From Dechloromonas sp. (GTDB taxonomy: Bacteria > Pseudomonadota > Gammaproteobacteria > Burkholderiales > Rhodocyclaceae), in NCBI GenBank assembly GCA_017302355.1, contig JAFLDQ010000003.1:1-61510 (forward strand): DNA of 61,510 bases, read 5' to 3'. Positions 1,869 through 58,954 of this stretch are shown piece after piece (positions within the stretch are counted from its first letter, which is position 1; every line of letters starts with the position of its first letter). Under the pieces are notes generated by a model that worked only from the letters and a program-made list of their open reading frames with translations, was not told where the DNA came from and searched no databases. The translations under genes were made by a program, and so were the position numbers.

Positions 1869-2864
1869 ATGCTCCCCCTCGCCCGCTACCGCTTCCATCT
1901 GCGCGCCGTCACCCCGCTCAATCTTCCCGAGTGGCCGGGGTCCGCGTTGCGCGGCGCTTTCGGGCACGCGCTGCGCAAGCTCGCCTGCATGACGCGGCAG
2001 AAGGAATGCGCTGGTTGCCCGCTGCGCGGCGCCTGTCCCTACCCTGCGATCTTTGCTCCGCCGCCGGTGGCCCATCCGCTGCAGAACTTCAGCCAGCCGC
2101 CCGCCCCCTACGTCATCGAACCCGCCGGCTGGGGCGCGCGACGCCTCGCCGCCGGAGAGCGCCATCATTTCGACATGGTGCTGGTCGGCCGCGCGCTGCG
2201 CGAACTCCCGCTCGTCGCGCTCGCCTGGCGTCACGCCCTGCGGAACGGCATCGGCCCCGGCGACGGCCGGGCGGAAATCTCCGCAATCGGCTGGCTCGCC
2301 CCCGGCGGCGCCGAGCAAGTCGTTCACACCCCCGAATCCGGCAGTTTCCGGGAACACGAAGCGCTCGCCCCCCAGCCCCCCGCCGCCACCGGCCGGATGA
2401 CCCTCGACCTGCTCAGTCCGCTCCGTCTGCAGGAGAACGGACGCGCGCTGCCGCCCAATCGCCTCAGCGCCGAAGCCCTGCTCATGGCCAGCGTCCGCCG
2501 CGCCAGCCTGATGGCCGAATTCCATGGCCCCGGCGCCCCAGGTTGGGATTTTTCGGCGCTCAAAACAGCGGCTGCCGCGGTCGACAGCGAAAAACACCTC
2601 GAATGGCAGGACTGGACGCGACGCTCATCGCGCCAGCAGAAGACGATGCAACTCGGCGGCGTCGTCGGTTGCTGGACCCTGCGCGGCGACCTTGCCCCCT
2701 TCCTTCCCGCCCTGCATCTCGGCCAGTGGCTGCACGTCGGCAAGGAAACCGCATTCGGCCTCGGACGCTACACGCTGCGACACAACCCCGCGCATTCCCC
2801 GGAAAACCCGGAACGCGCCCTCCAGGCCATTGATTTGCAAGACGAAGTCGATGTACCGCAGTAA
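1869..2864 (+). CDS. cas6: CRISPR pre-crRNA endoribonuclease Cas6 (RAMP)
   Basis: This 331-residue protein (MLPLARYRFHLRAV) cuts repeat RNA to make crRNAs. Support comes from the RAMP-like start, the WPGSALRGAFGHALR segment, four cysteines (C40, C47, C50, C56) that could hold a metal, and the glycine-rich C-terminal GKETAFGLGRYTL loop typical of Cas6. I place the start at ATG 1869, 2 nt after the previous stop, although the open frame extends upstream. The stop TAA (2862-2864) lies inside the first CRISPR repeat, and the last sense codon CAG uses the first G of that repeat. There is therefore no intergenic leader between cas6 and the array. Confidence 0.9.
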   Translation: MLPLARYRFHLRAVTPLNLPEWPGSALRGAFGHALRKLACMTRQKECAGCPLRGACPYPAIFAPPPVAHPLQNFSQPPAPYVIEPAGWGARRLAAGERHHFDMVLVGRALRELPLVALAWRHALRNGIGPGDGRAEISAIGWLAPGGAEQVVHTPESGSFREHEALAPQPPAATGRMTLDLLSPLRLQENGRALPPNRLSAEALLMASVRRASLMAEFHGPGAPGWDFSALKTAAAAVDSEKHLEWQDWTRRSSRQQKTMQLGGVVGCWTLRGDLAPFLPALHLGQWLHVGKETAFGLGRYTLRHNPAHSPENPERALQAIDLQDEVDVPQ

Positions 2865-2896
2865 CAATCCAGCCCTGAAATAAAAGGGATTAAGAC
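2861..2896 (+). repeat. CRISPR repeat 1, also encoding the cas6 stop
   Basis: The first repeat is identical to the consensus and supplies the final base of the last cas6 codon and the TAA stop. Spacer 1 is 2897-2930. Confidence 0.95.
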
Positions 2897-5800
2897 TAGC
2901 GCGCGCGTCGTTATACGTGGCGCCGCTTGGGTAACAATCCAGCCCTGAAATAAAAGGGATTAAGACTGTGCATCAAGAGTATCGCGCGCAATGCGCGCGT
3001 AACAATCCAGCCCTGAAATAAAAGGGATTAAGACTGGTTGATTCTCCTTTATTGATGAATGGAACGGTAACAATCCAGCCCTGAAATAAAAGGGATTAAG
3101 ACTGGGACACGCGGCAAAGCGGATAACCACGACGGTAACAATCCAGCCCTGAAATAAAAGGGATTAAGACGACGAAATCGAGCGCCTGCTGCACCGTGGT
3201 ACGCAGTAACAATCCAGCCCTGAAATAAAAGGGATTAAGACCTATGGCCTCACCGAGTTCTGGGATGTGATCCGGTAACAATCCAGCCCTGAAATAAAAG
3301 GGATTAAGACCACCTGAAGTGCGGCTTTTGCGGCTTCCAATTCGTAACAATCCAGCCCTGAAATAAAAGGGATTAAGACCGCTCTCATCGGCGATGATGG
3401 AAAGCTTGATGAGCGTAACAATCCAGCCCTGAAATAAAAGGGATTAAGACCGTCAAGCTGATTGCAAGCGGAATAGACGTGTAACAATCCAGCCCTGAAA
3501 TAAAAGGGATTAAGACCAGTGGCATAATCGAAATACCCGGTGCCATTAGGTAACAATCCAGCCCTGAAATAAAAGGGATTAAGACGATTGCCTTCTGGTG
3601 CATTCTGGTTGATACGAGGGTAACAATCCAGCCCTGAAATAAAAGGGATTAAGACGCTCACAGTGCTTCCACCTTCGCGTGAAACTCGGTAACAATCCAG
3701 CCCTGAAATAAAAGGGATTAAGACCAGAGCGGCTTTAAGGTGTTCCGGCAGTTCCGAGTGTAACAATCCAGCCCTGAAATAAAAGGGATTAAGACAGACG
3801 ACCACGGCCTTGTGCAGCCTCTGACCTTTGGTAACAATCCAGCCCTGAAATAAAAGGGATTAAGACTCCGACGCGGACGCAACCACACACCAAACCTCCG
3901 TAACAATCCAGCCCTGAAATAAAAGGGATTAAGACGAGCCATGATCCACCTATCGCCCAAATCGCCACGGTAACAATCCAGCCCTGAAATAAAAGGGATT
4001 AAGACCAGCGAACGCAGATCACGCCCATCGATCCATGGGTAACAATCCAGCCCTGAAATAAAAGGGATTAAGACCAGGAAGTGTTTCATTTTCATTTCTC
4101 CAAGTTGGGTAACAATCCAGCCCTGAAATAAAAGGGATTAAGACGAAGCTCCTCTATGCCTCGGCAGTGGAGAACGTTGTAACAATCCAGCCCTGAAATA
4201 AAAGGGATTAAGACGCGTTCAGCCGCTTCGCGTTTAGCCGCTTCTGCGGCGTAACAATCCAGCCCTGAAATAAAAGGGATTAAGACAGGCGACCAGCGAT
4301 TGCTCTATGGTGCATGCGGGTGTAACAATCCAGCCCTGAAATAAAAGGGATTAAGACAGAATTCCATGAGATGCTTGGCGTATGCCTTACGTAACAATCC
4401 AGCCCTGAAATAAAAGGGATTAAGACACTTAGTAGCTCCTTTAATATTAGTAGTAGATACGTAACAATCCAGCCCTGAAATAAAAGGGATTAAGACAGGA
4501 TGGCCATCAGTACCTTCCCATTCTGCGCGTAACAATCCAGCCCTGAAATAAAAGGGATTAAGACGATCATGATGTCTTTCTCCTTGACTAGTTGCAAGTA
4601 ACAATCCAGCCCTGAAATAAAAGGGATTAAGACCACGTGGACGCGGTTGTCACAGGTGCGGGCGTACGTAACAATCCAGCCCTGAAATAAAAGGGATTAA
4701 GACGGGATGAGTTCGCCGATGTGTGTCATTAGGCGAAGTAACAATCCAGCCCTGAAATAAAAGGGATTAAGACTTGGCTTCGGTGCCGTTCTTGGCGTAG
4801 GCGCTGAGTAACAATCCAGCCCTGAAATAAAAGGGATTAAGACTCTACTACTGAAGAGTTTAATGAAATAACTAGGTAACAATCCAGCCCTGAAATAAAA
4901 GGGATTAAGACATTTTTCTTCATTGATAAATCAACTTTTCTGTGTAACAATCCAGCCCTGAAATAAAAGGGATTAAGACAGTAGTCGGAAGACGACATCC
5001 AAAACCCCGAGTAACAATCCAGCCCTGAAATAAAAGGGATTAAGACCCGGTAACGAGATAGAGCATAGGAAAGTCAGAGGTAACAATCCAGCCCTGAAAT
5101 AAAAGGGATTAAGACGAAGTCCATGTCAAACCCTTTCAGATCAAGGACGTAACAATCCAGCCCTGAAATAAAAGGGATTAAGACCAGTGAAGAAGGCGAT
5201 AAGCGACGCGAAAAGGGTAACAATCCAGCCCTGAAATAAAAGGGATTAAGACTCCAGAACGACATCCGAACCACGGGCATAAACGCGTAACAATCCAGCC
5301 CTGAAATAAAAGGGATTAAGACTTTGCTGGCGGAGGGATTTCATGGGAGTTTGCTGTAACAATCCAGCCCTGAAATAAAAGGGATTAAGACGCTTGTTGG
5401 AGTGCACCCCTGAGTTTGCGATGTAACAATCCAGCCCTGAAATAAAAGGGATTAAGACCCACATCGAATTTGTAATTCAGGATCAACGAACGTAACAATC
5501 CAGCCCTGAAATAAAAGGGATTAAGACGGTTCCGATAGCAATTGCTGTAATTGCCAATGCAAGTAACAATCCAGCCCTGAAATAAAAGGGATTAAGACCC
5601 GACCTGTGGATAACTCACTCGCGGCAAGTCACCGTAACAATCCAGCCCTGAAATAAAAGGGATTAAGACGCCGTCCTCGCCATCCACCCCGCCCCCACGC
5701 GGTAACAATCCAGCCCTGAAATAAAAGGGATTAAGACGCTTGAGCCAGATCGGATTCACCGCTCGCTCCGGTAACAATCCAGCCCTGAAATAAAAGGGAT

Positions 5801-7775
5801 TAAGACGACCCCGCCAGACGTACACCATCGAATAATCCATGTAACAATCCAGCCCTGAAATAAAAGGGATTAAGACCCCCGCCTGAGTGCATATGCACTA
5901 GATCCCCAGGTAACAATCCAGCCCTGAAATAAAAGGGATTAAGACCTTGGTCAAGCGGAAGGCTCTTGAGGTTGGCAGTAACAATCCAGCCCTGAAATAA
6001 AAGGGATTAAGACCAGCGGATTGCCGTTCAGCGTCAGCAGATCGGCCGTAACAATCCAGCCCTGAAATAAAAGGGATTAAGACTTCGGTTTTCCGCTCGG
6101 TTTTCGGTTTTCCGCTTGTGTAACAATCCAGCCCTGAAATAAAAGGGATTAAGACCAATGGTCATGTTGTTTCCTTCAGGTGGTTGGGTAACAATCCAGC
6201 CCTGAAATAAAAGGGATTAAGACCCGATATCAATGATCATCCGCACGTTGTTCGGTAACAATCCAGCCCTGAAATAAAAGGGATTAAGACGAATGTGAGC
6301 GGCAACGTCGCGGCATCTGATCTGTAACAATCCAGCCCTGAAATAAAAGGGATTAAGACAACATTCGGGGCGACGATGTGCACGTCGACTGTACGTAACA
6401 ATCCAGCCCTGAAATAAAAGGGATTAAGACTCCGGAAGTTGTTAATAAGCTGTTGGTTGCCGGGTAACAATCCAGCCCTGAAATAAAAGGGATTAAGACA
6501 TGTCGGCTTGCAGCAGTTCCGTAATGTGGTCGGTAACAATCCAGCCCTGAAATAAAAGGGATTAAGACGATGCGCCAACCGCGTTTCTTGGCTCGCGGTT
6601 CGTAACAATCCAGCCCTGAAATAAAAGGGATTAAGACTCCTGTGACCGTATGGCTCTTGACATCGGAAAACGTAACAATCCAGCCCTGAAATAAAAGGGA
6701 TTAAGACCTTCGTCACCAGCCGTCTTGGACAAATCCTGGGGTAACAATCCAGCCCTGAAATAAAAGGGATTAAGACATCCTTACCCCTTCCCTATCCCTT
6801 GACATCCTCTGTAACAATCCAGCCCTGAAATAAAAGGGATTAAGACCCTGCCCGCCATAGGGTTTGACCGCGATAGAGAGTAACAATCCAGCCCTGAAAC
6901 AAAAGGGATTAAGACGATAATCAGCCGCACGTTGTTTGTGCTGCGGAGTAACAATCCAGCCCTGAAATAAAAGGGAATAAGACTGACAGCCACGAGTATG
7001 AGCGCACCGGCCTCCGTAACAATCCAGCCCTGAAATAAAAGGGATTAAGACCGTGCAACAGGCGCGCACAGTCAAGTAATTCCTGTAACAATCCAGCCCT
7101 GAAATAAAAGGGATTAAGACACAACTCGTCGCACAGCTTTCTCACATCCGGCAGGTAACAATCCAGCCCTGAAATAAAAGGGATTAAGACTCGCCGCACG
7201 CTCGGCCTTGATGCGCAGGAGCTCGTAACAATCCAGCCCTGAAATAAAAGGGATTAAGACGCCGTGAGCCGCCAAAGCTTTTCGAGCATTCGGTGGTAAC
7301 AATCCAGCCCTGAAATAAAAGGGATTAAGACCGCCCTTCCAGCCGGCTTTACGGCATGCGACGAGTAACAATCCAGCCCTGAAATAAAAGGGATTAAGAC
7401 TTTGGCCAGTAGGCACTGTGGCGATTGCCATCGTAACAATCCAGCCCTGAAATAAAAGGGATTAAGACCTGGACTTCTCGCAGAACTTGGTCTTGGTTTG
7501 TAACAATCCAGCCCTGAAATAAAAGGGATTAAGACCCCCTGAACCAAGTAACAACACCCGTCATCCGGTAACAATCCAGCCCTGAAATAAAAGGGATTAA
7601 GACGATGTTGGCCAGTTCATCATCGTGCTGAATATCGGTAACAATCCAGCCCTGAAATAAAAGGGATTAAGACTGTGGCCATGGTGATTCCTTTATAGAG
7701 ATAGAGGTAACAATCCAGCCCTGAAATAAAAGGGATTAAGACTGCCCGGCAAACCAGGCATCCCAGCCAGTTCCT

Positions 7776-7953
7776 GTAACAATCCAGCCCTGAAATAAAA
7801 GGGATTAAGACCCTGCCTTGCTATGGGCCTTGGTGATGTCGATAGCGTAACAATCCAGCCCTGAAATAAAAGGGATTAAGACCCTGCCTTGCTATGGGCC
7901 TTGGTGATGTCGATAGCGTAACAATCCAGCCCTGAAATAAAAGGGATTAAGAC
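7776..7953 (+). repeat. Tandem duplication of a repeat-spacer unit
   Basis: Spacer 72 (7812-7846) and spacer 73 (7883-7917) are identical 35-mers beginning CCTGCCTTGCTATGG, each bounded by consensus repeats. This is a unit duplication within the array, most likely by recombination between repeats. Confidence 0.95.
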
Positions 7954-9430
7954 CGGGTAGATCATCTCGTTGCCATAGACGCTGCGGTAACAATCCAGCG
8001 CTGAAATAAAAGGGATTAAGACTCGCGGATTGTTGTGGTCATGTCAGTACCATTCGCGTAACAATCCAGCCCTGAAATAAAAGGGATTAAGACCGTGGGC
8101 ATAGCTGGGCTCGTAATCAGGTTCGGTAACAATCCAGCCCTGAAATAAAAGGGATTAAGACCTGATGGCGGTGGCGAGCCAGAGAGCGAGTTGAAGTAAC
8201 AATCCAGCCCTGAAATAAAAGGGATTAAGACAAATCGCTCTCGCCGGATGCGCCGCCCTTCGCGTTGTAACAATCCAGCCCTGAAATAAAAGGGATTAAG
8301 ACTCGTGGCCACCTCGTCTTGAAAGACTTTGGATGTAACAATCCAGCCCTGAAATAAAAGGGATTAAGACACCTCGTCTTGGAATGCCTTGGATGCGTAC
8401 AGGGTAACAATCCAGCCCTGAAATAAAAGGGATTAAGACGGCCTGCTCGGCGAACGAGTGGATGATGGTGGGGTAACAATCCAGCCCTGAAATAAAAGGG
8501 ATTAAGACAGGCCAGCCCGTTGCGATGTCGCATTCTACTTGGTAACAATCCAGCCCTGAAGTAAAAGGGATTAAGACGCTTCGGGGGTTGCAAGTTTTTC
8601 ACGTGACATGGTAACGATCCAGCCCTGAAATAAAAGGGATTAAGACGACGACGACTGCTTTACTGTGTGCTTTGGTGATGGTAACAATCCAGCCCTGAAA
8701 TAAAAGGGATTAAGACCTCGATAGTGGTGGTTTTTACCCAGCCTACGGTAACAATCCAGCCCTGAAATAAAAGGGATTAAGACTATTGAGATCCCAATCT
8801 ATCCGCGAACGCTGTTTGTAACAATCCAGCCCTGAAATAAAAGGGATTAAGACTGATGGTGCACATATCATCTTCAGACAAAGCAGTAACAATCCAGCCC
8901 TGAAATAAAAGGGATTAAGACTTGATCTAGATTATCTACCTTAATAGAACCATCTGGTAACAATCCAGCCCTGAAATAAAAGGGATTAAGACGAACGACC
9001 TCGCCCAAGCCGTATTCTGCGGCGGTAACAATCCAGCCCTGAAATAAAAGGGATTAAGACCCGGCTTGCGTCGGCTACCTCGTCGAATGATCCGGTAACA
9101 ATCCAGCCCTGAAATAAAAGGGATTAAGACTGGGGAGTCGGGCTGTCAACGTCGATGTCGAGCGTAACAATCCAGCCCTGAAATAAAAGGGATTAAGACC
9201 TTCTTATTACGTAAGGCGTAAAAGTAACCTCGTAACAATCCAGCCCTGAAATAAAAGGGATTAAGACTCAGTTGCAGGGTCAACCATGACGAGTGGAAGC
9301 GTAACAATCCAGCCCTGAAATAAAAGGGATTAAGACTCGTTCGGCTCCAGGCTGTCGAACTCGCGGCGGTAACAAGATTGTCCTGCCGGCACTTCGTTTA
9401 TCATTGGCCATCGCTTGCCGGAAGGGATTC

Positions 9431-18566: not shown

Positions 18567-19295
18567 CTAGAGATCCTGCAACTCCTTGAATATGCGGCGT
18601 GTTTCCAGTTCTTTGCCACCGAGATAATAGGCCATCAGCGTCCGCATCAGCTGCTTGGCTTCGCCGCGCGATCGCGGATCCGAGAAGTCCTCCACCGCCA
18701 GATCGAGCAAGGTCTTGCCGCTGACCACCTGGGCCGCCCCGCCCGCGTGCTCCAGCCGCACCGGCCCCTGTTCCATGCGGTAGGTGTAGTGGGCCGCGGC
18801 AATGATTTCACTGCCGCTGCTGTCATGATTCAAGGTCAGTCCGTAGCCGAGTTCCTGCAGCAGGGCCTTCTCGAAGCGGCGCAGACCGGCCTCGCGCTCC
18901 CCGGCGCCGGCATCCTCGGCCAGCCGCGAAAGCATTTCCGAATAGCGCGCGAAGAGCTTCTCGTGGGCATCCTCGCGCGGCAGCAGGTGCATCAGCAATT
19001 CGTTGAGGTAGTAACCGCAAAAAAGGGCCGGGCCTGCCAGCAAGGGTTGCCCGCCCTGCCATTCGGCCTTCATCAGGGTCAGGACTTCGCCCTTGCCCGC
19101 CCAGCCCAGTTCAAGGGGCTGGAACGCCATCAACAGGCCGCGGATCGCCGAGCGCGGCCGGCGCGCACCGCGTGCCAGCAGCGCCATGCGCCCGAAATCG
19201 CGGGAAAACACTTCGACGATGAGACTGGTTTCCCGGAACGGGTACGCATGCAGGACGTAAGCCGGCTGGCCATCGACTTTGCTGCGCAGGTTCAT
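18567..19295 (-). CDS. recO: DNA repair protein RecO
   Basis: This 242-residue recombination mediator acts with RecR to load RecA on SSB-coated DNA. It has an N-terminal OB fold ([20 protein letters not shown], about 11-30), [15 protein letters not shown] and a helical C-terminal half with [18 protein letters not shown]. There is no obvious Cys4 zinc site. It overlaps the era stop by 4 nt, so the two are coupled. Confidence 0.94.
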
Positions 19296-20176
19296 TCGTA
19301 GCCAAGGCTCTTCAGCAGGCGCGCATCGTCGTTCCAGCCAGACTTGACCTTGACCCAGACCTCGAGATGGACCTTGCCGCCGAACAGGCGCTCCATGTCC
19401 TGACGGGCCTCGCTGGCAATCCGCTTGAGCGCTTCGCCACCCTTGCCGATGACGATTGCCTTGTGGTTGTCGCGGTCGACGACGATTGCGGCGAAAATCC
19501 GCCGCAAATTGCCTTCGATCTCGAATTTCTCGATCTCGACCGTCGTCGTGTAGGGCAATTCATCGCCGACCAGACGGAAAACCTTTTCCCGGATGTATTC
19601 GGCGGCAAGAAAGCGTTCGCTCCTGTCGGTCAGCTCGTCCTCCGCAAACATCAGCCCCTCGTTGGGCAGATGTTTGCGCGCTTCGGCAAGCAATTCCCCG
19701 GTCTGCCGCCCCTTGGCCGCGCTGATCGGCACCACCGCGGCGTAATCGTGCTCCGCGGAAACACGGGCGATGAAGGGCAACAGCGCCATGCGGTCCTTCA
19801 GGCAATCGGTCTTGTTGACCACCAGGATGACGGGCCGATCCTTCGGCAGCAGCCTGACCACCGCCTGATCCTGGGCGTCATAGCGACCCGCCTCGACGAC
19901 GAAGAGCACCAGATCGACATCGCCCATCGCCTGCGTCACGCCGCGATTCATGGTCCGGTTCAGGGCGTTGCCGAACCTCGTCTGGAAACCCGGCGTATCG
20001 ACGAACACGTATTGCGCGTCGTCGCTGGTGACGATGCCGGTGATCCGGTGCCGGGTGGTCTGCGCCTTGCGCGAGACGATGCTGATCTTCTCGCCGACGA
20101 GATGGTTGAGCAGCGTCGACTTGCCGACGTTGGGACGGCCAACGATGGCGATGTAACCGGAACGTGTCTTGTTCAT
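19292..20176 (-). CDS. era: GTPase Era
   Basis: This 294-residue GTPase binds 16S rRNA and is needed for 30S assembly. The G1 loop [10 protein letters not shown] is at about 13-22, G3 is VDTPGFQTR and G4 is NKTD. The C-terminal KH domain contains [18 protein letters not shown]. It sits between rnc and recO, the standard order. Confidence 0.97.
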
Positions 20177-20183
20177 CCCAGGA

Positions 20184-20855
20184 TCATGCCCCGAGCGCCT
20201 TCAGTGCGCTGTCGGCGGCGGCCTGCTCGGCCAGCCGGCGGCTGTTGCCCTGCCCGAGGGTGCGCAAGGCCGGGTTGCCGATTTCGCAGGCAACCTCGAA
20301 GCGCTGTTCGTGCGCGGCGCCGCTGGCCTCGACGACGTGATAGCGCGGCAATGGTTTCTTTCGCGCCTGCAGCCACTCCTGCAGACGGGTCTTGGCGTCC
20401 TTGTTCGGCTGCCCCGGCGTCAGTTCGTCGAACAGGGGGAGGTAAAGGCGAGCGATGACCGACTGCGCCACCGCGAAACCGCCGTCGAGATAGACGGCTC
20501 CAATCAGCGCCTCCAGGGTATCCGCCAGTATGGAAGGGCGCTGGCCGCCACCGCTTTTCAGTTCGCCCTCGCCCAGACGCAGGTAGCTGCCGAGATTCAG
20601 CGTCACGGCCACCCTGTGCAACGCATCCTGGCGAACCAGATTGGCGCGCAACCGCGAAAGCTCGCCTTCCGCCAGATGCGGATGGCGCCTGAACAGCGCC
20701 ACCGCGATCACGCAGTTGAGAACTCCATCGCCGATGAATTCGAGCCGCTCGTTGTTGGGGTTGCCGAAGCTGCGATGCGTCAGGGCCGTCTGCAGCAACT
20801 CGCGATCGCCAAAGACATGCCCCAGTGACGCCATCAGCGCCGACAAGTCGGTCAC
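20184..20855 (-). CDS. rnc: Ribonuclease III
   Basis: This 223-residue double-strand-specific RNase processes rRNA precursors and other RNAs. The nuclease signature [14 protein letters not shown] is at about 34-47; E39 and D43 are present, with Gly where Ser is more usual. [15 protein letters not shown] is the second metal-binding block, and a dsRNA-binding domain occupies the C-terminal third ([19 protein letters not shown]). It lies 7 nt downstream of the DUF4845 gene on the same strand. Confidence 0.96.
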
Positions 20856-20862
20856 CTGCCGC

Positions 20863-21213
20863 TCAGTCGGCGGTCGAACCCTTGTAGTTGATTACCAGAC
20901 TGACATTGCCGAAGAGCGGAATCCGCTTGTCGTAGTCGAATGCAATGACGATCTTCCCCTGGTCCTTGGAGACATCGAGCTGTTCCGGCTTGAAGTCGAG
21001 CTGGTCGATATTGGCGAAGTTGTCGAAGGTCTTTCTGACATCGGCGACGGTCGCGTCGGGCCCGACCTTGTTGGCCGTCGCCTTGATATCCTTGAGAATC
21101 TTGTAGTACTCGACCGTCGTCGGCGCCACCTTCATTCCCAGCACGGCCACCAGCGTTATCACGACGCCCCAGAAAATGAGCCCGGAAAGAGCGACTCCAC
21201 GTTGATGTTTCAT
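20863..21213 (-). CDS. DUF4845 domain protein
   Basis: This 116-residue protein has one N-terminal membrane segment (GVALSGLIFWGVVITLVAVLGM) and a short periplasmic domain (TTVEYYKILKDIKATANKV, then RIPLFGNVSLVINYKG). The family is found between lepB and rnc in beta- and gammaproteobacteria and has no established function. Placement in this operon supports the family call. It begins 8 nt after the lepB stop. Confidence 0.88.
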   Translation of the reverse strand: MKHQRGVALSGLIFWGVVITLVAVLGMKVAPTTVEYYKILKDIKATANKVGPDATVADVRKTFDNFANIDQLDFKPEQLDVSKDQGKIVIAFDYDKRIPLFGNVSLVINYKGSTAD

Positions 21214-21221
21214 TTCTTCTC

Positions 21222-22919
21222 CTACTTGAAGGAACCAATCCGGCTGGGACTGCTCAGGTTCAACCAGATAAAAAATGCCTTGCCCACGATGTTCCGCTCG
21301 GGCACGAAACCCCAGAATCGGCTGTCACGGCTGTTGTCACGGTTGTCGCCCATCACGAAGTAATGCCTGTCGGGCACCTTGCAGATGACGCCGGCCGCAT
21401 TGTAGGTGCAATTCTCCCTAAACGGAAACCGGGTCGCATCGGGTATGAAGGCCGGCGCATCACTGTCGTTCAGGTACTTGTACTCGACATCGCCCATTCT
21501 AGCGACATATTGTTCCGAGTAGTAGAGACGTTCCGGATGATGGTAGTCGAAAACCTTCGTCGTCTCGACAGGCAGACCGTTGATGGTCAGACGCTTGTTC
21601 TGATAGGAAACCGTATCGCCCGGCACCCCGACGACGCGCTTGATGTAGTCGAGCGAGGGGTCCTCCGGGTAGCGGAAGACCATGACGTCGCCCCGCTGCG
21701 GCGAATTGATGGCGATGATCTTCGTGTTGATCACCGGCAGGCGGATGCCGTAGGTGAACTTGTTGACCAGGATGAAGTCGCCGACCTGCAAGGTCGGAAT
21801 CATCGAACCCGAGGGGATCTTGAAGGGCTCGAAGAGGAAGGAGCGCAACAGGAAGACGATCAGGATGACCGGGAAGAAACTGGCGCCCCATTCCACCCAC
21901 AGCGGCTCCTTGACCGCGTCGTCGGACTCCCCTTGCGCATCGCGGGCGAAAGGCAGTTTGGCCGCGAATCCGGTGGGTCCGCCTTCGGCGCCTTGCGCCC
22001 GGCCCGCAGGCGAGGTCCGAGCAAGCGAAACCTTTCGGGCGACCTCCTCGACGTCCTTGCCGCTGAATTCCTTCCTGTCGTTGAGATAGCCGGAGAGCAG
22101 CAGGTGATCGCAGAGTGAATTGATGCGCCCGGGAATTCCCCCCGTGGCGGCGAATATGGCGGCATGCCCATCCTCGGTGAAGCTCGGAGAACCGCTCGAC
22201 CCGGCGCATCTCAGCCGGTGCTCGATGTAGGCGCGCGTCTCCGCCGCGTTCATCGGCTCGATGTGGTAGGAGGCAATGATCCGCTGCCTGAACTGCGTCA
22301 GTCCGGGACTCTGCAGGATTTCACGGAATTCGGGTTGCCCGACGAGAAAGCTGCGCAGCAGGGGCTGGTTGCCGAACTGGAAGTTCGACAGCGTGCGCAA
22401 CTCCTCGACGGCCTTGATGCTCAGATTCTGCGCTTCGTCGACGATCAGCAGACAGCTCTTGCCCTTGCTGGTCAGGCCGATCAGAAAGGCTTCCAGGGAG
22501 TGCATGACGTCCGATTTGTCGACCCCCTTGGTGTGGATGCCGAATGCGGTGCCGACCAGGCGCAAGGTGTTGTCGGCATCGCCGCGGGCGCTCACCAGAT
22601 GCGCCGCGATGACCTTGTCCGGATCCAGGCTGTCGAGCATCCGGCGAATGATCGTCGTCTTGCCCACGCCCAGTTCGCCGGTAATGACCACGAAACCTTC
22701 GTTCTCCTGCATGCCGTACTCGAGATACGCGGTGGCGCGCAGATGCGCCTCGCTCGGAAAATAGAACTGCGCATCGGGGTTTGCCAGGAAGGGCTTGCTG
22801 CTCAAGCCATAGAAAGACGCGTATTTCCGCTCGCGCAATTTCCGGAATTTCAGCACGTCGACCGCGTAAAGCGCCCCGGTCACGACCGTCAGCACGAAGA
22901 GAATAAGGGCAAAATTCAT
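21222..22919 (-). CDS. lepB: Signal peptidase I with an inserted AAA (ExeA/XrtA-type) ATPase domain
   Basis: This 565-residue protein is about twice normal LepB length. Residues 1-33 (MNFALILFVLTVVTGALYAV...) are the ordinary first membrane segment of LepB. Residues about 35-300 are a complete ATPase of the ExeA or PEP-CTERM/XrtA-associated type: FYGLSSKPFLANPDAQFYF, Walker A GELGVGKT (81-88), Walker B LLIVDEAQ (157-164), FLVGQPEFRE and a winged C-terminal part. After a 35-residue linker the LepB sequence resumes: second membrane segment (about 345-362), SGSM with catalytic S372, YIKR with base K427, and GDNRDNSRDSR (524-534). Both halves look functional and the frame is unbroken. The insert falls in the cytoplasmic loop between the two membrane segments, where ATP is available. 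Confidence 0.92.
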   Translation of the reverse strand: MNFALILFVLTVVTGALYAVDVLKFRKLRERKYASFYGLSSKPFLANPDAQFYFPSEAHLRATAYLEYGMQENEGFVVITGELGVGKTTIIRRMLDSLDPDKVIAAHLVSARGDADNTLRLVGTAFGIHTKGVDKSDVMHSLEAFLIGLTSKGKSCLLIVDEAQNLSIKAVEELRTLSNFQFGNQPLLRSFLVGQPEFREILQSPGLTQFRQRIIASYHIEPMNAAETRAYIEHRLRCAGSSGSPSFTEDGHAAIFAATGGIPGRINSLCDHLLLSGYLNDRKEFSGKDVEEVARKVSLARTSPAGRAQGAEGGPTGFAAKLPFARDAQGESDDAVKEPLWVEWGASFFPVILIVFLLRSFLFEPFKIPSGSMIPTLQVGDFILVNKFTYGIRLPVINTKIIAINSPQRGDVMVFRYPEDPSLDYIKRVVGVPGDTVSYQNKRLTINGLPVETTKVFDYHHPERLYYSEQYVARMGDVEYKYLNDSDAPAFIPDATRFPFRENCTYNAAGVICKVPDRHYFVMGDNRDNSRDSRFWGFVPERNIVGKAFFIWLNLSSPSRIGSFK

Positions 22920-22929
22920 TCGTTGAATC

Positions 22930-24720
22930 TCAGCTATCGACCCGCAGGATGGCGAGGAAGGCCTCCTGCGGGATTTCCACGCTGCCGACCTGCTTCATGC
23001 GCTTCTTGCCGGCCTTCTGTTTCTCCAGAAGTTTTCTCTTGCGTGTGATGTCGCCGCCATAGCACTTGGCCAGCACGTCCTTGCGCATCGCCTTGACGTT
23101 CTCGCGGGCAACGATATGCGATCCGATCGCCGCCTGAATCGCCACGTCGTACATCTGACGGGGAATCAGTTCGCGCATCTTGGAGGCCAGTTCGCGGCCG
23201 CGATACTGCGAGTTGGCGCGATGCACGATCAGCGACAGCGCGTCCACCTTCTCGTTGTTGATCAGGATGTCCAGCTTGACCACATCGGCCGCGCGGTATT
23301 CCCGGAACTCGTAGTCAAGCGACGCGTAGCCTCTCGAGCACGACTTCAGGCGGTCGAAGAAATCCATCACCACTTCGGCCATCGGAATTTCGTACACCAG
23401 CTTTACCTGCCGGCCGTGGTAATGCATGTCGATCTGATTGCCGCGCTTCTGGTTGCACAGCGTGATGACGTTGCCCAGATAGTCCTGGGGCACGAAGATC
23501 GTCGCGGTGATGATTGGCTCGCGCACCTCTTCGACCTTGGTCAGTTCCGGCAGCTTGGCCGGGTTTTCGACCTGGACGACCGTGCCGTCGCGCATCACCA
23601 CCTCGTAGACGACGGTTGGCGCAGTGGTGATCAGATCCTGATCGAATTCGCGCTCCAGTCGCTCCTGGACGATTTCCATGTGCAGCAGGCCCAGGAATCC
23701 GCAGCGGAAACCGAAGCCGAGCGCCTGCGAAACCTCGGGCTCGTAGTGCAGCGAGGCATCGTTGAGTTTCAGCTTTTCCAGCGATTCGCGCAGGGAGTCG
23801 TACTGATTCGACTCGACCGGGTAGAGTCCGGCGAACACCTGCGGCTTGATTTCCTTGAACCCCGGCAAGGGTTCGCTCGCCTTGCGGTCGGCCGTGGTGA
23901 TCGTGTCGCCGACCTTGGCCGCCCGCAGTTCCTTGATCCCGGCAACGACGAACCCCACTTCGCCCGCGCGCAAGGCTTCGCGCGAGACCGACTTCGGGGA
24001 AAACACGCCCACCTGTTCGCACAACTGCTGGGCGCCGCTCGCCATGAAGAAGAGCTTGTCCTTCGGGCGGATGACGCCATCAACCACGCGCACGAGCATG
24101 ACGACGCCGACGTAGTTGTCGAACCAGGAGTCGATGATCAAGGCCTTGAGCGGCCCTTGCGGATCGCCCTTGGGCGGCGGAATGCGTGCAACGACCGCTT
24201 CGAGGATATCGTCAACCCCCAGACCCGTCTTGGCCGAGGCGAGGATGGCGTCGGTTGCGTCGATGCCGATCACGTCCTCGATCTCCTGTCGCGCATTATC
24301 GGGGTCAGCCGAGGGAAGGTCGATCTTGTTCAGCACCGGAACGACGTCGACGTCGAGGTCGAGCGCCGTGTAGCAGTTGGCGACGGTCTGCGCCTCGACA
24401 CCTTGCGAGGCGTCGACAACCAGAAGGGCGCCTTCGCAGGCAGACAATGAACGCGACACCTCATACGAGAAATCGACGTGTCCCGGCGTATCGATCAGGT
24501 TCAGATTGTAGACCTTGCCGTCACGCGCCTGGTATTGCAGCGCCGCGGTCTGCGCCTTGATGGTGATGCCACGCTCGCGCTCGATATCCATCGAATCGAG
24601 CACCTGCGCCTCCATCTCGCGATCCGAGAGCCCGCCACAGAGATGGATGATGCGATCGGCAAGCGTCGACTTGCCGTGGTCGATATGGGCGATTATGGAG
24701 AAGTTGCGGATGTGATCCAT
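22930..24720 (-). CDS. lepA: Elongation factor 4 (LepA)
   Basis: This 596-residue translational GTPase acts on stalled or mis-translocated ribosomes. The G1 motif is [14 protein letters not shown] (about 9-22), G3 is DTPGHVDF, G4 is NKIDLP, and the LepA-specific C-terminal domain ends with [20 protein letters not shown]. Length is normal. lepB follows 10 nt later, the classical lepA-lepB pair. Confidence 0.98.
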
Positions 24721-50685: not shown

Positions 50686-51519
50686 TCACGCTCTCATCGG
50701 TTGCGCTTCCGCCAGGGCGTCGAAGTAGGTTTCGTCCGGAGTCTTCCAGCCCAGCGACTGATGCGGGCGCCGGCGGTTGTACCAGTCAAAGCAGTCGGCG
50801 AGGCTCTTTCGTTGCTCGATACCGTTGTCGCAGGGGCGCAGATAGACCCATTCGTGCTTTACCGTCCACCACAGTCGCTCAACGAAGATGTTGTCGTGGC
50901 AGCGTCCCCGACCGTCCATGCTGATCCGAATCTTGTGTTCGGCGAGCACGCCGGCAAATTCGGCGCTGGTGAATTGGCTGCCCTGATCGGTGTTGAAGAT
51001 TTCCGGTGTGCCGTAGCGGGCAATGGCTTCCCTCAGTGCCGCCGTGCAAAAATCGCTCGTGAGCGTGTTGGAGAGGCGCCAGCTCAGCACCTTTCGTGTC
51101 GCCCAGTCCAGGATCGCGCACAGGTACAGAAAGCCGTGCCGCATCCGGATGTAGGTGATGTCGGTGGCCCAGACCTGGTTCGGCCGGTCGATGGTCAGGC
51201 CGCGCAGCAGATACGGGTAGATCTTGTGCTCGGGGTGCGGCTTGCTGATGTTGGGCTTGGGGCCAACGGCCCACAGACCGAGTTTCTTCATCAGGCGCCG
51301 GATGCGGCGGCGACCGACCAGGATGCCTTCCCGCTTGAGCATGATCTGCAGTCGCCGACTGCCGTAGATCGGGTGCGCGGTGAAAAGTTCGTCCAGTCGC
51401 TTGAGCAGGTCGAGTTCTTCCTTCGATTCAGGCTTCGGCCGGTAATAGACGCTGCTGCGGGATACTCCCAGCAGCCAGGATTGCCGGGTAACGGACAGCG
51501 CGCTTCCCGTCTCGATCAT
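50686..51519 (-). CDS. IS3-family transposase, OrfB (DDE domain)
   Basis: This 277-residue protein has the IS3 HTH_21 part (HPIYGSRRLQIMLKREGILV) and the rve integrase core: WATDITYIRMRHGFLYL (first Asp), FNTDQGSQFTSAEF (second Asp) and NIFVERLWWTVKHEWV (Glu), ending YNRRRPHQSLGWKTPDETYF. All three acidic residues are present, so it may be active. Its ATG overlaps the orfA stop (ATGA); in IS3 elements the fused product usually arises by -1 frameshifting. Confidence 0.95.
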   Translation of the reverse strand: MIETGSALSVTRQSWLLGVSRSSVYYRPKPESKEELDLLKRLDELFTAHPIYGSRRLQIMLKREGILVGRRRIRRLMKKLGLWAVGPKPNISKPHPEHKIYPYLLRGLTIDRPNQVWATDITYIRMRHGFLYLCAILDWATRKVLSWRLSNTLTSDFCTAALREAIARYGTPEIFNTDQGSQFTSAEFAGVLAEHKIRISMDGRGRCHDNIFVERLWWTVKHEWVYLRPCDNGIEQRKSLADCFDWYNRRRPHQSLGWKTPDETYFDALAEAQPMRA

Positions 51520-54670: not shown

Positions 54671-54867
54671 CAGCGGGGCTGCCTGCTCCCTCCGCGGCCC
54701 ACGACGCCCGCGATCTGATTCGGCTCGCCGCCTGCATGGCGCGCTCCCGCCGCTCCCAGCCGGCTTGAGTTTCCCGCCATTTCGCCTATAGTGGAGCGAC
54801 CTGCCTCCAGCGCCTGTTCGACCAGCGGCCGGACAGGCAGGCAAGCTTGCGCAATGAGGAGAATCTC

Positions 54868-55881
54868 ATGACCATCTGCATCGGTAGCGAGGAAAAGCGC
54901 GTTGGTCTGGCGCTTTCGGGCGGCGGCTTCCGGGCCGCGGCTTTTCATCTTGGGGCATTCCGCAAGCTGGAACAGATCGGCCTGCTGTGGAAGCTCGACC
55001 TGCTCACCTGCGTCAGCGGCGGCAGCATCGCCGGCGCCTTCCTCGCCTGTCACTGGGGCGAAGACGATGCCCTCGACAAACTGGAGGACTATCTGCGGAC
55101 CCGGTCGATCGCCGTCTCGTCGTTCATCGGCGGCGCCCTCGATCCTTTCCACAGCCGGCTCGACAAGCTTGCGGACAGCTACGAACGCGACCTCTATGGC
55201 CAGCGCACGCTCGGTTCGCTGCGCAACGGGCCGCGTCTGTATCTCAATGCGACCAACCTCGCCACCGGCAACCTGTTCTTCTTCGTTGGCGGCGGCCCCG
55301 CCGGCAAGGCCGAGATGGGCGAATGGGAACTCGGCACAACCGACGCCCCGGACTTCCCGATCAGCCGCGCGGTTGCCGCATCGTCCGCCTTTCCGCCGGT
55401 CTTTCCTCCGCTCAAGATCGATCGGTCCGAGTACCCGGCGGCCGGGGTCGACTATGTCACCCTCACCGATGGCGGCGTATATGACAACCTTGGCGTCAAT
55501 CCGCTGTTGCGCAAACGCAATGCGCTCGACTACCTGATCGTCAGCGACGCCGGCAAGCCCTTCGCGATCGACGAGCGGCCGACCGAGGCCGGCTCCATCG
55601 TGCTGGCGGCGGCGATCGGCATCCTGATGGAACAGGTTCGCGGCCTGCAGTTCAAGCGGCTCGAGCTGAATGCCGGCGCCGAGGGGGGAGCCCGCCCGGT
55701 ATGGTTCTCGATCGACAGCACGGTGGGCGAGGAACGCGAAGGCGACGCCACCTTCGCTTCCGCCATCGGCACCAACCTGAAACGACTCTCGACGGCAGAG
55801 ATGACCGTGCTCGCCCGACACGCCGGCGCCCTGCTCACCCACCGGCTGCAGACCTACGTGCCCGAACTTCTCGGCGCTTGA
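54868..55881 (+). CDS. Patatin-like phospholipase
   Basis: This 337-residue protein has the patatin oxyanion loop ALSGGGFRAAAFHLG (about 15-29), the nucleophile elbow CVSGGSIAGAFLA (Ser within SGGS, about 49-52) and the catalytic Asp in LTDGGVYDNLG. The two catalytic elements are present, so it is probably an active lipid acyl hydrolase. GAGGAG precedes ATG 54868 by 6 nt. It is the first of three same-strand genes with gaps of 25 and 27 nt, which suggests one operon. In known defence systems such lipases act by damaging the cell membrane; that role here is inference. Confidence 0.88.
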   Translation: MTICIGSEEKRVGLALSGGGFRAAAFHLGAFRKLEQIGLLWKLDLLTCVSGGSIAGAFLACHWGEDDALDKLEDYLRTRSIAVSSFIGGALDPFHSRLDKLADSYERDLYGQRTLGSLRNGPRLYLNATNLATGNLFFFVGGGPAGKAEMGEWELGTTDAPDFPISRAVAASSAFPPVFPPLKIDRSEYPAAGVDYVTLTDGGVYDNLGVNPLLRKRNALDYLIVSDAGKPFAIDERPTEAGSIVLAAAIGILMEQVRGLQFKRLELNAGAEGGARPVWFSIDSTVGEEREGDATFASAIGTNLKRLSTAEMTVLARHAGALLTHRLQTYVPELLGA

Positions 55882-55906
55882 AACCTTGCCCGGCGAGGGA
55901 ACCACG

Positions 55907-58900
55907 ATGACAGACGCCCCTTCCGGAAGCTTCTCCGACGAATCCGTGCGGCCGCTGCTCGAACTCGGCCGCACCGACCCGGCCCCGGAAGTCCGCCTCG
56001 CCGCCCTGACGGCGGCCTCGCGCTTCCCGCTCGGACCGGCAGCCTGGCGCAATCTGGCCGAGGCCTGCCCGCAGATGGTCGGCACGGCGCCCGCAGGTTC
56101 GCCGGTGCGCCGGGCAGCCTTGACCTTCGCGGTCGACGTCCCTCTCCTCTCGGTACGACAGGAGCTCCGCCGGATGGCCGAGGATCCGGCCGAACCCGAC
56201 CGCGACGCCATCGCCTCGGCCCTCGCGGAAGCGGGCGACCCGTCACGCATCCGCGCCCTGGTCGAACGCGCGGCCAGCGGCGATCCGGATGCCTTCCGCC
56301 TGCTGGCCATCGCCCCTCTTGAAGACACCTCGCTGACCCCCGCCGACCTGCCGCCCTGCCCCGAGGCGGCATTCTGGCGTGCCCTGGCGATCGGTCGACT
56401 CGGCGGCTTCGCCGCGCTCGAGGATGTTTTCGCCCCCGAAGCCCCGGAACCCGACCTGTTCTGGGGCAGCCCGTGGACCGCCTACGACCGCATCGCGACG
56501 ATTCGCCCGATCCCCGAACCGCTGCGCGATGCACTTGAACGCCTGCTCGCCGGCCTCGACCGGCCGGACACACCATTGCCCCATGAACTCCTCCGCGCCC
56601 TGCGCCTGACCGTCTGGGCCGCCACTGGCATGGCCGATGCGCAAGGCTATCCACTGCCCCCGCCGCGCCCCTTCGCGCCGGTTACGGCCCCCGAGCCGTT
56701 CCGCACCACCAAGGGGGTGACGAGCGTCCTGACGGCGCACATGGGCGCCCGCCAACCCGAACACGACGATGGCCAGATCGCCTGGATGATCGCCGATACG
56801 CCCGGCGATCGCCTGATCGGCGAGGTTGTCGCGCTCGTCCGGCGCGACTGGCCGGCGACGGTGCGCGTGCGCCTGCTCGACATCCTCGGCAAGACCGCCG
56901 ACTGCCAGGCCGGCTGCGCCCCCACGCCATTCCGCGGGGCGGGAGGCGGTGCGACACCCGCACTCCGGCGCGACCTGATCGACGACCGGCTGCGCAGCAG
57001 CGCCCGGCCGCCGAGCCCGCCAGCGCCGTCCGCACCGGCCAGTCGTCCGCGCGAAATCGCCTTCGACATGTCCGGCGCCGGCGATCTCCTTTCGGCCAGC
57101 CGCTCGGCGCCAACCGCGGCGCCCCCTGCCTCCCCCGCGCCCGGCGCGGGAAGCGTCGAATACCATGCCGCCAGCCGTGGCGCACCGCCCCCACCTCCCG
57201 TTCAAGCCACGCCGCCGGATACCGACGAGCGCCGCGTCCGGGCGCGGATACTCCATGCCGGCCAGAAACGCGATACCTTCGTTGCCGGCGCCGCCAACAC
57301 CATCCGCTGCTGGGTCGGCCTGCCGGAGGACGACGGCGCGGCCACCTCGGATACGGCGATCCCAACCGTTCCCATCCCCGCGCGGGGCCTGGAACTCACC
57401 GTCGAGCTGTGCTGGGAGGATCAGCGCGCCAGCACCACGCTGCTGCTCCCCGCCTCGCGCGGCGCGCGCAGCGGCGATTGCGATCTGCACATCGAGGTGC
57501 CCGCCGACAAGGCCTACGTCAGCGCCGAGATCATGTTCCGTTATCGCGGGCGCTGCTTCGAGGCGGTCCGGATCGAAGCGGCGGCGCTGGCCCCCGGCGA
57601 GCAGCCCAGACCGCGCGATATCCTGCGCATCAGCACCCAGCTCAGCCGCCGCGAGGTCATCGCCATTGAAGACGCCAAGCCGTGTGATGCAACCCTCGTT
57701 TACGGCCAGGCGCCGGCGCCGGGGCAACCCGTGCCTCCCAAGGGCAGCCTGCGTGTCTTCGACGGCTCCGGCGGACGCGACTACAGGTTCGATCCGCCGG
57801 GCCAGGCCATCGAAAACCTCAACGCCGCGCTCTTCTCGACCGAGAAGTCGCTGGTTCGCCGTCGGGCCGCCACGCCAGGCAGCGAAGCCGCGCTGGATGT
57901 CACCGACGAGGAAGTCCGCGTCCTGTTGCGCGACATGGCGCGTTTCGGCGCCAGCCTCTACAACCAGCTTGACCTACAGGAATTTCGCGACCCTGGCGAC
58001 CGCATCCAGTTCCTGACCTTCGACCCCGACATCGTGCTGCCGCTCGAATTCGTCTACGACCGCGGTTTCCCGGTCGATGCCGCCCCCCTCTGCGATGGCT
58101 GGCGGACAGCACTGGACGCCGACACCGGCATCTGCCCCGCCTGCGGCAACGCCCCGTTGACGCCCAAGGAGCGGAGCCACGCGAAAACCATCTGCCCGCT
58201 CGGCTTCTGGTCGCTGCGCAAGGTCATCGAGCGCCTGAATCCCGATAGTGCCGCCAGCGCCTCCGCCCCGACGGTGGATCGCCGCCGCCTGCCGGCCATC
58301 GACTCGGCCGTTTTCGCCAGTAGCAACAAGGTGCCAGAAGAGGAGCGGACAGCCACCTGGACAACGATCCGGGGACAGATTGCCAAAGCGACCCTCGCCC
58401 GCCATTGGGACGAGTGGTACGACGCGGTACAGAAGCACCCCCGCCTGCTGATCGCGCTGCCGCATCATGACCTGGAGAATGTGGAAGACTTTCTCGAAAT
58501 CGGCGACGAAGGCTTCGGTCTCGATCTTGCCCGGCTGCGGCGCGGCCAGATTCGCCCGGAATACGTCAACCCGGACGGCCGCGAGCCGGGACCCATCCTG
58601 TTGTTGCTCGGTTGCCGGACCGGCGCCGAATCGGAACTCGGCTACGTCCAGCTGGTGCGCGAATTCCAGAAGCTCAAGACCGCCATCGTCCTCGGCACCC
58701 TGGCCCAGATCCTCGGGCGCCATGCGGCGCCGCTCGCCCGCGAACTGGTGACGCAGCTGATCGAGGTCAACGACCCGGAGGCCGACTTCGGCTCCCTGAT
58801 GCGCCGCGTCCGCCGCCGCATGCTGGGCCGGGGCTATCTGCTTTCCCTCTGCCTGATCGCCCTCGGCGACGCCGAATGGCGGCTGACGCCGACGCCGCGG

Positions 58901-58927
58901 CCGGCGTCCGCCGCCCCCTCGCCGTAG
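55907..58927 (+). CDS. HEAT-repeat and CHAT-protease-like protein
   Basis: This 1006-residue protein has an N-terminal helical repeat region of HEAT type (DPAPEVRLAALTAASRFPLG and later repeats, to about 360), a Pro/Ala/Ser-rich linker (about 365-440), a beta-rich domain (about 445-600, VRARILHAGQKRDTFVAG, CWVGLPEDD, FRYRGRCFEAVRIEAAAL) and a C-terminal part that fits a CHAT caspase-like protease: LPLEFVYDRGFPVD, a Cys cluster (CPACGN and CPLGFWSLRKVIERL), LLIALPHHDLEN with H853/H854, LLLLGCRTGAESE with C903, and AIVLGTLAQILGRHAA. The His and Cys positions match a catalytic dyad. I infer a protease or protease-like signalling subunit. Starts at ATG 55907 with GAGGGA 6 nt upstream. Confidence 0.72.
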   Translation: MTDAPSGSFSDESVRPLLELGRTDPAPEVRLAALTAASRFPLGPAAWRNLAEACPQMVGTAPAGSPVRRAALTFAVDVPLLSVRQELRRMAEDPAEPDRDAIASALAEAGDPSRIRALVERAASGDPDAFRLLAIAPLEDTSLTPADLPPCPEAAFWRALAIGRLGGFAALEDVFAPEAPEPDLFWGSPWTAYDRIATIRPIPEPLRDALERLLAGLDRPDTPLPHELLRALRLTVWAATGMADAQGYPLPPPRPFAPVTAPEPFRTTKGVTSVLTAHMGARQPEHDDGQIAWMIADTPGDRLIGEVVALVRRDWPATVRVRLLDILGKTADCQAGCAPTPFRGAGGGATPALRRDLIDDRLRSSARPPSPPAPSAPASRPREIAFDMSGAGDLLSASRSAPTAAPPASPAPGAGSVEYHAASRGAPPPPPVQATPPDTDERRVRARILHAGQKRDTFVAGAANTIRCWVGLPEDDGAATSDTAIPTVPIPARGLELTVELCWEDQRASTTLLLPASRGARSGDCDLHIEVPADKAYVSAEIMFRYRGRCFEAVRIEAAALAPGEQPRPRDILRISTQLSRREVIAIEDAKPCDATLVYGQAPAPGQPVPPKGSLRVFDGSGGRDYRFDPPGQAIENLNAALFSTEKSLVRRRAATPGSEAALDVTDEEVRVLLRDMARFGASLYNQLDLQEFRDPGDRIQFLTFDPDIVLPLEFVYDRGFPVDAAPLCDGWRTALDADTGICPACGNAPLTPKERSHAKTICPLGFWSLRKVIERLNPDSAASASAPTVDRRRLPAIDSAVFASSNKVPEEERTATWTTIRGQIAKATLARHWDEWYDAVQKHPRLLIALPHHDLENVEDFLEIGDEGFGLDLARLRRGQIRPEYVNPDGREPGPILLLLGCRTGAESELGYVQLVREFQKLKTAIVLGTLAQILGRHAAPLARELVTQLIEVNDPEADFGSLMRRVRRRMLGRGYLLSLCLIALGDAEWRLTPTPRPASAAPSP

Positions 58928-58954
58928 CCCCCCCACCTGAAAGGCTATCTGCCC

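Follow-up and report, generated by a model that had tools for sequence, protein, structure and literature searches.

The window, which is the whole stretch of 61,510 nucleotides of Dechloromonas DNA that was analysed, carries on its minus strand a single unbroken open reading frame of 565 codons (21222-22919, ATG start) in which a signal peptidase I and an ATPase are fused. Only 10 bases separate its start codon from the lepA stop codon, and the gene order on this strand is lepA, the fusion, a DUF4845 gene, rnc, era and recO, where all names other than DUF4845 are those we presume. The fusion also lies between lepA and rnc in G298, which is one of the two genomes of the genus found to encode it, the other being G417. 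The features of the locus and of the protein are the following:

22930-24720, minus strand: presumably lepA (named from sequence and gene order), immediately upstream of the fusion, with the same order in G298
21222-22919, minus strand: lepB-ATPase fusion gene, 565 aa (open reading frame, Pfam and NCBIfam matches, 23 full-length homologues)
22830-22919, minus strand: residues 1-30, LepB N-terminus with the first membrane segment and the basic stretch KFRKLR (alignment, hydropathy)
22029-22823, minus strand: residues 33-297, inserted AAA+ ATPase of the TIGR03015 type (profile match, motifs, AAA+ fold matches)
21912-22028, minus strand: residues 298-336, linker of variable sequence and length among fusions (fusion alignments)
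21225-21911, minus strand: residues 337-565, the whole S26 catalytic domain, preceded by the second membrane segment (profiles, alignment, matches to E. coli LepB structures)
20863-21213, minus strand: DUF4845 gene (PF16137 match), immediately downstream of the fusion
20184-20855, minus strand: presumably rnc, for ribonuclease III (named from sequence and gene order), downstream
19292-20176, minus strand: presumably era (named from sequence and gene order), downstream

Elsewhere in the window, dense direct repeats at 2861-9338, with copies at multiples of about 69 nt, resemble a CRISPR array and would make about 90 units if continuous. At 361-1866 and 1686-2864, both on the plus strand, an N-terminal Csx16-like (Cas_VVA1548) part is joined to a Card1-like CARF nuclease, with Cas6 adjoining, and the genes of both proteins lie beside the repeat array. 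Three adjoining genes at 54847-60145 (plus strand) may form a defence cassette: one encodes a patatin-like phospholipase, another a protein of 1013 aa whose only match, to HEAT, is weak, and the remaining one a metallo-beta-lactamase-fold protein that matches the LmuA defence model (E 3.6e-56). The open reading frame at 50686-51519 (minus strand) presumably encodes an IS3-family transposase.

Profile searches identified both partners of the fusion. In Pfam, AAA_22 matches residues 72-202 (E 4.8e-23) and Peptidase_S26 matches residues 341-552 (E 1.1e-56), and PF10502 scores 191.9 bits against a cut-off of 22.9. Among the NCBIfam models, TIGR03015 covers residues 33-297 with 360.6 bits (curated cut-off 324.5), and the signal peptidase I model TIGR02227 covers residues 346-554 with 169.9 bits (cut-off 47). 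Walker A reads GELGVGKT (residues 81-88) and Walker B reads LLIVDEAQ (residues 157-164), while S372 lies within PSGSM and K427 within DYIKR; we take the latter two residues to be the catalytic Ser-Lys dyad. The original prediction of an ATPase of about 265 residues lying inside LepB after its first membrane segment, with intact Walker motifs and followed by a complete catalytic domain, is thus upheld, with an ATPase of the XrtA type; the strand had been left unstated there. Hydropathy peaks at residues 1-25 and 339-369, with the basic stretch after the first, suggest two N-terminal membrane segments around a putative cytoplasmic loop. The known topology of LepB puts the loop between the membrane segments in the cytoplasm, where the ATPase is accordingly predicted to lie. 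A first structure model, made from 30 aligned rows, was poor (pLDDT 54). We do not trust the placement of the domains in the model made from 119 rows, because of its pLDDT of 71.7, its pTM of 0.42 and an alignment that is uneven in the LepB part; in this model, the helix of the first membrane segment extends to residue 37 (with moderate confidence only). The architecture is a new one, made of known parts.

We searched for similar proteins among 5.8 billion sequences, scoring the 8000 candidates with the most words in common. The best 120 matches listed include 23 further full-length fusions (P0002-P0024), which cover 99-100% of the query at 72-99% identity; the other matches in this list are fragments and separate ATPases. 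The mean column identity across the alignment of the 24 fusions is 85%, and ten of them are much alike (P0013 and P0015-P0023, each of 558 aa and 72% identical to that of the window). The fusion was found in 1 of the 395 sampled genomes of the family and in 2 of the 76 of the genus (G298 and G417), and a scan of contigs revealed none among the best 80 loci listed. Several of the sampled genomes are partial, and some rows lack any LepB match, so that these absences are not all true. The same fusion, which the original prediction proposed to seek in related genomes, is therefore present elsewhere, within the same operon in G298.

These homologues decide whether the fusion might be an assembly chimera or a mis-called gene. 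There are two observations in favour of such an artefact. The frame of the fusion of G417 is broken within the linker, and P0027 (396 aa) resembles a chimera, since it follows the fusion up to the Walker B region and then a free ATPase. The latter is probably a chimeric metagenome contig. The break in G417 falls in a 20-kb stretch that contains 19 ambiguous bases, and the readable parts of that fusion agree with an intact protein, P0006; we therefore regard the break as a sequence error. With 23 full-length homologues at 72-99% identity and the same operon in G298, misassembly, an outcome that the original prediction had said would refute it, is ruled out, and an artefact of either kind is extremely improbable. 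The original prediction knew of no described protein like this one. Our literature search, which covered titles and the openings of abstracts and left subscription papers largely outside, likewise found no LepB-ATPase fusion, and there is nothing on one in the excerpted text of PMC9360617.

Under the best explanation of the locus, the fusion would serve a Dechloromonas/Azonexus-like bacterium as its housekeeping signal peptidase of type I. A Peptidase_S26 search of G298 gave two matches: the fusion (200.2 bits) and a protein of 64.8 bits among conjugation-like genes, which we take to be the conjugation protein TraF (the names of the neighbouring genes are also presumed). This search found no full LepB-type match in G298 besides the fusion, which is likely to cleave signal peptides in this bacterium and, because it is the only such match, most likely processes the ordinary ones. 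A normal lepB being the true gene, another outcome that had been envisaged, is not borne out there. In G417, the search for a second lepB gave, besides the fusion at 193 bits, S26 matches of 89.2, 80.9 and 40.1 bits (C1:1308146-1308658, 2109659-2110069, and 2065194-2065619, respectively), all three of them weaker. The description of the fusion as the only LepB is thus limited to G298. Among the unfused relatives, a single S26 match occurs in G389 and likewise in G416.

The boundaries of the insert can be located by comparison with unfused proteins. The LepB of eight Dechloromonas/Azonexus-like genomes aligns to residues 1-30 or 1-31 and to about 337-565 of the fusion, and the identity over residues 1-30 is 77-87% in all eight. 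Two close unfused proteins, L017 and L006, read KFRKLR-ATN-AKEPLWVEW, and the fusion reads KFRKLR-ERKYASFYGL...KEPLWVEW. The insertion site is thus exactly after KFRKLR29, where the unfused relatives have a few residues. Whereas the loop of LepB (S26, TIGR02227; E. coli structures 1b12 and 1t7d) amounts to a few residues in these close relatives, that of the fusion holds a 265-residue AAA+ domain and a linker. Most free ATPases start with MYESFYGL (56 of 92) or MYEAFYGL (20 of 92), and that of G417 with MYEDFYGL, which places the start of the insert at or next to the first codon of a free ATPase. The free ATPase of G298 has 408 aa and a C-terminal tail that is absent from the fusion.

The phylogeny of the ATPases was rooted with four ExeA-like paralogues; all our trees come from quick searches, with SH-aLRT as the only support. 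The 12 fused ATPases form one clade (99) inside 56 free ones and group with 11 of the latter, including the ATPase of the EPS locus of G417 (96). A tree of 126 rows without outgroup agrees, with a support of 99-100 for the fused clade over both trees. The rooting is weak because a very long branch leads to the ExeA outgroup; branches are also long within the fused clade. Repeated independent fusions are disfavoured, since the fused ATPases are one clade and share a common junction, and a single origin of the fused domain is preferred for the same reasons. The simplest reading is that the insert would be a copy of the lineage's own EPS-locus (XrtA-type) ATPase, which starts near the first codon of the latter, ends near its residue 266, and leaves out the C-terminal tail. 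The cytoplasmic loop of LepB, itself very short, would have received this copy in frame, once in the lineage. We regard the identity of the fusion and its single insertion as almost certain, as far as sequences can tell. In the LepA/Rnc/Era tree, which places them among Azonexaceae, the window groups with G417 (100) and G298 with L017 (90), which is unfused, and the four share a node with a support of 99; in the LepB tree the unfused L006, L017, and L039 group with five fusions of the G298 type (95). The fused state thus makes no clean species clade, and one has to assume that the fusion was lost, transferred, or replaced by an unfused allele.

We compared the constraints on the different parts of the gene using Nei-Gojobori counts with 1000 bootstraps, taking the window, G298, and G417 two at a time. 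The dN/dS of the inserted ATPase is 0.248 (0.172-0.341), 0.176 (0.115-0.274), and 0.196 (0.132-0.274), and that of the LepB part is 0.093, 0.100, and 0.062 in the same pairs. The linker gave 0.63 between the window and G298 (39 codons) and 0.80 and 1.32 in the other pairs (13 and 12 codons). Of six pairs of free ATPases, three gave 0.026-0.069 with synonymous sites near saturation, two yielded no value, and one was left out. The inserted ATPase is clearly under purifying selection, and this comparison indicates that the constraint is apparently weaker than on its free relatives. Among 92 free ATPases (P0030-P0121), 164 positions show a conservation of at least 97%; the 14 fusions compared all keep 89 of these, and the other 75 vary in some or all of the 14. 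All 24 fusions retain an intact Walker A (GxxGxGKT) and Walker B. The same is true of the SGSM.PT, DYIKR, and GDNRDNS.DSR boxes of the peptidase in the 24 full-length fusions, in whose alignment S372 and K427 are invariant. The GxPRRIN motif, presumably the site of the arginine of AAA+ sensor 2, departs from this sequence in 9 of the 24, including that of the window (first arginine in 6, second in 3), whereas PRRIN is present in all 89 free ATPases that match the pattern (3 of the 92 lack a pattern match). The window has PGRIN, and P0002, which is 99% identical, has PRRIN. A full hydrolysis cycle is doubtful in some fusions.

The ATPase of the fusion resembles the EPS-locus ATPases of the TIGR03015 family in its nearly full-length profile match, its two Walker motifs, and its descent in sequence. 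It differs from them in lying outside the EPS locus, between membrane segments and without the C-terminal tail, in apparently evolving faster, and in the alterations of GxPRRIN. By its position, it is a paralogue and not an equivalog of this family, because it lies within LepB in the lep operon, and both G298 and G417 encode a free-standing member elsewhere, by a gene of its own. It is also 30-31% identical to four ExeA-like paralogues in G298, G417, G389, and G416, those of the outgroup, for which the label ExeA is our presumption. ExeA/GspA, the assembly ATPase of type II secretion, has a related domain, and both ATPases are cytoplasmic and linked to the membrane, as predicted for the fusion. 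According to PMC4098917, ExeA crosses the membrane with one transmembrane domain and binds peptidoglycan through a periplasmic domain, and its cytoplasmic ATPase is needed in A. hydrophila for the formation of the ExeAB complex and for the multimerisation of the secretin. The fusion has a signal peptidase domain in the place of the periplasmic one, and no peptidoglycan-binding Pfam match at E 0.001. Folds of the MuB and TnsC type of AAA+ proteins match the fusion as well (13-18% sequence identity in the rows listed); these proteins act on DNA, but nothing in the fusion suggests DNA binding.

Both fusion genomes, G298 and G417, retain a free ATPase in an EPS-type locus. TIGR03015 matches over the cut-off are found in 37 of the 76 genomes of the genus, with two copies only in these two, and the unfused relatives G389 (L017) and G416 (L006, only 2.3 Mb) have neither the fusion nor a TIGR03015 match over the cut-off. 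Names of genes in these loci are presumed unless they come from family searches. In G298, the EPS locus with the XrtA-type ATPase (C1:13827-20523) lacks an exosortase at the place where G417 has its own. A different fusion of a TIGR03015-type ATPase, with a PF02350 epimerase domain, occurs in P0043 (704 aa). We take PF02350 to be of the WecB type, and in the EPS locus of G298 the open reading frame after the ATPase is, by our reading, wecB.

Linkage to an exosortase/PEP-CTERM system had been put forward in the original prediction. It is in line with the naming of the ATPase family after the XrtA/PEP-CTERM system and with the content of G417, where an exosortase match starts about 5.9 kb after the start of the EPS ATPase and four PEP-CTERM matches exceed the cut-off. 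Profile searches of G298, whose fusion is nevertheless intact, gave no exosortase match and no PEP-CTERM match over the cut-off, and at the position of the exosortase of G417 it has two overlapping genes that we read as glycosyltransferases. Parts of the exosortase/PEP-CTERM system are thus matched in one fusion genome and not in the other, which weakens the suggested link; a dedicated coupling of the signal peptidase to exosortase XrtA for PEP-CTERM proteins is very unlikely. These data hint that the XrtA-type ATPase may belong with EPS rather than with the exosortase. Since both fusion genomes keep the EPS-locus ATPase, the EPS locus would be the better link for the fusion. In Aquincola, floc formation requires EPS genes and a PEP-CTERM gene (PMC9850573).

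The reading that we prefer, and hold tentatively, is that the fused domain is an ATP-binding module for oligomerisation or docking that ties the signal peptidase to the assembly of the EPS-export ATPase. The domain would face the cytoplasm, bind ATP, and assemble in an ATP-dependent manner like its relatives ExeA, MuB, and TnsC. Assembly with itself or with the free EPS ATPase would cluster LepB or dock it to the EPS export machinery, such that the signal peptides of envelope and matrix proteins would be cut where this machinery is built. ATP would be spent on assembly and not on cutting, which fits the retention of the ATP-binding motifs while GxPRRIN drifts. Docking is consistent with the two complete domains scoring over their cut-offs, with Walker motifs and Ser-Lys dyad kept in all 24 fusions, with the TIGR03015 copy numbers of fused and unfused genomes, with the precedent of the cytoplasmic ATPase of ExeA (PMC4098917), and with the fold matches to MuB and TnsC. 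Against it, the co-occurrence with the EPS ATPase comprises no more than G298 and G417 on the fused side and, on the unfused side, G389 and G416, the latter of only 2.3 Mb; the constraint on the fused ATPase looks weaker, with 75 of the 164 conserved positions varying; the fusion lacks the C-terminal tail, through which the free ATPase might bind; and unfused relatives interleave with fused ones in the trees. It is possible, if doubtful, that cutting or its placement is itself ATP-dependent, with AAA+ rings or filaments formed with the free EPS ATPase gathering the main signal peptidase at the matrix-export machinery.

The ATPase could instead be a tolerated passenger, kept only so that its folding spares the essential LepB, and drifting towards a pseudo-ATPase scaffold. 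The apparently weaker constraint, the drift of GxPRRIN, the long branches of the fused clade, and the existence of close unfused relatives would all be expected of a passenger. This is somewhat unlikely, because dN/dS is clearly below 1 (upper bounds of 0.341, 0.274, and 0.274) and constraint on the fold alone would hardly be expected to preserve Lys, Thr, Asp, and Glu, the catalytic residues, everywhere, with both Walker motifs intact in 24 of 24 fusions. To our knowledge, LepB-type signal peptidases work without nucleotides, and the control of cleavage by nucleotide that the original prediction suggested is possible for the fusion. A true allosteric switch, in which ATP binding or hydrolysis in the loop moves the second membrane segment and the catalytic domain and gates cleavage by energy state, is unlikely. 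In its favour, both membrane segments are attached to the ATPase, the first continues as a helix to residue 37 in the structure model (at moderate confidence only), and the Walker motifs are kept in 24 of 24 fusions. But the linker, with its variable length and sequence and its dN/dS (0.63, 0.80, and 1.32 over 39, 13, and 12 codons), would be a poor lever, GxPRRIN is altered in 9 of the 24 fusions, and constant cleavage is expected to be needed where the fusion is the only full LepB.

A housekeeping enzyme has thus acquired an AAA+ domain, and selection has retained this domain over considerable divergence. Some close relatives have the plain enzyme, so that comparing similar bacteria can test what the domain does. 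The TIGR03015 ATPase is apparently little studied; a search of the literature by name gave a single paper, on biofilm genes of Klebsiella. Its fusion to a protein of known function provides a clue that this family may work at the membrane, near exported proteins.
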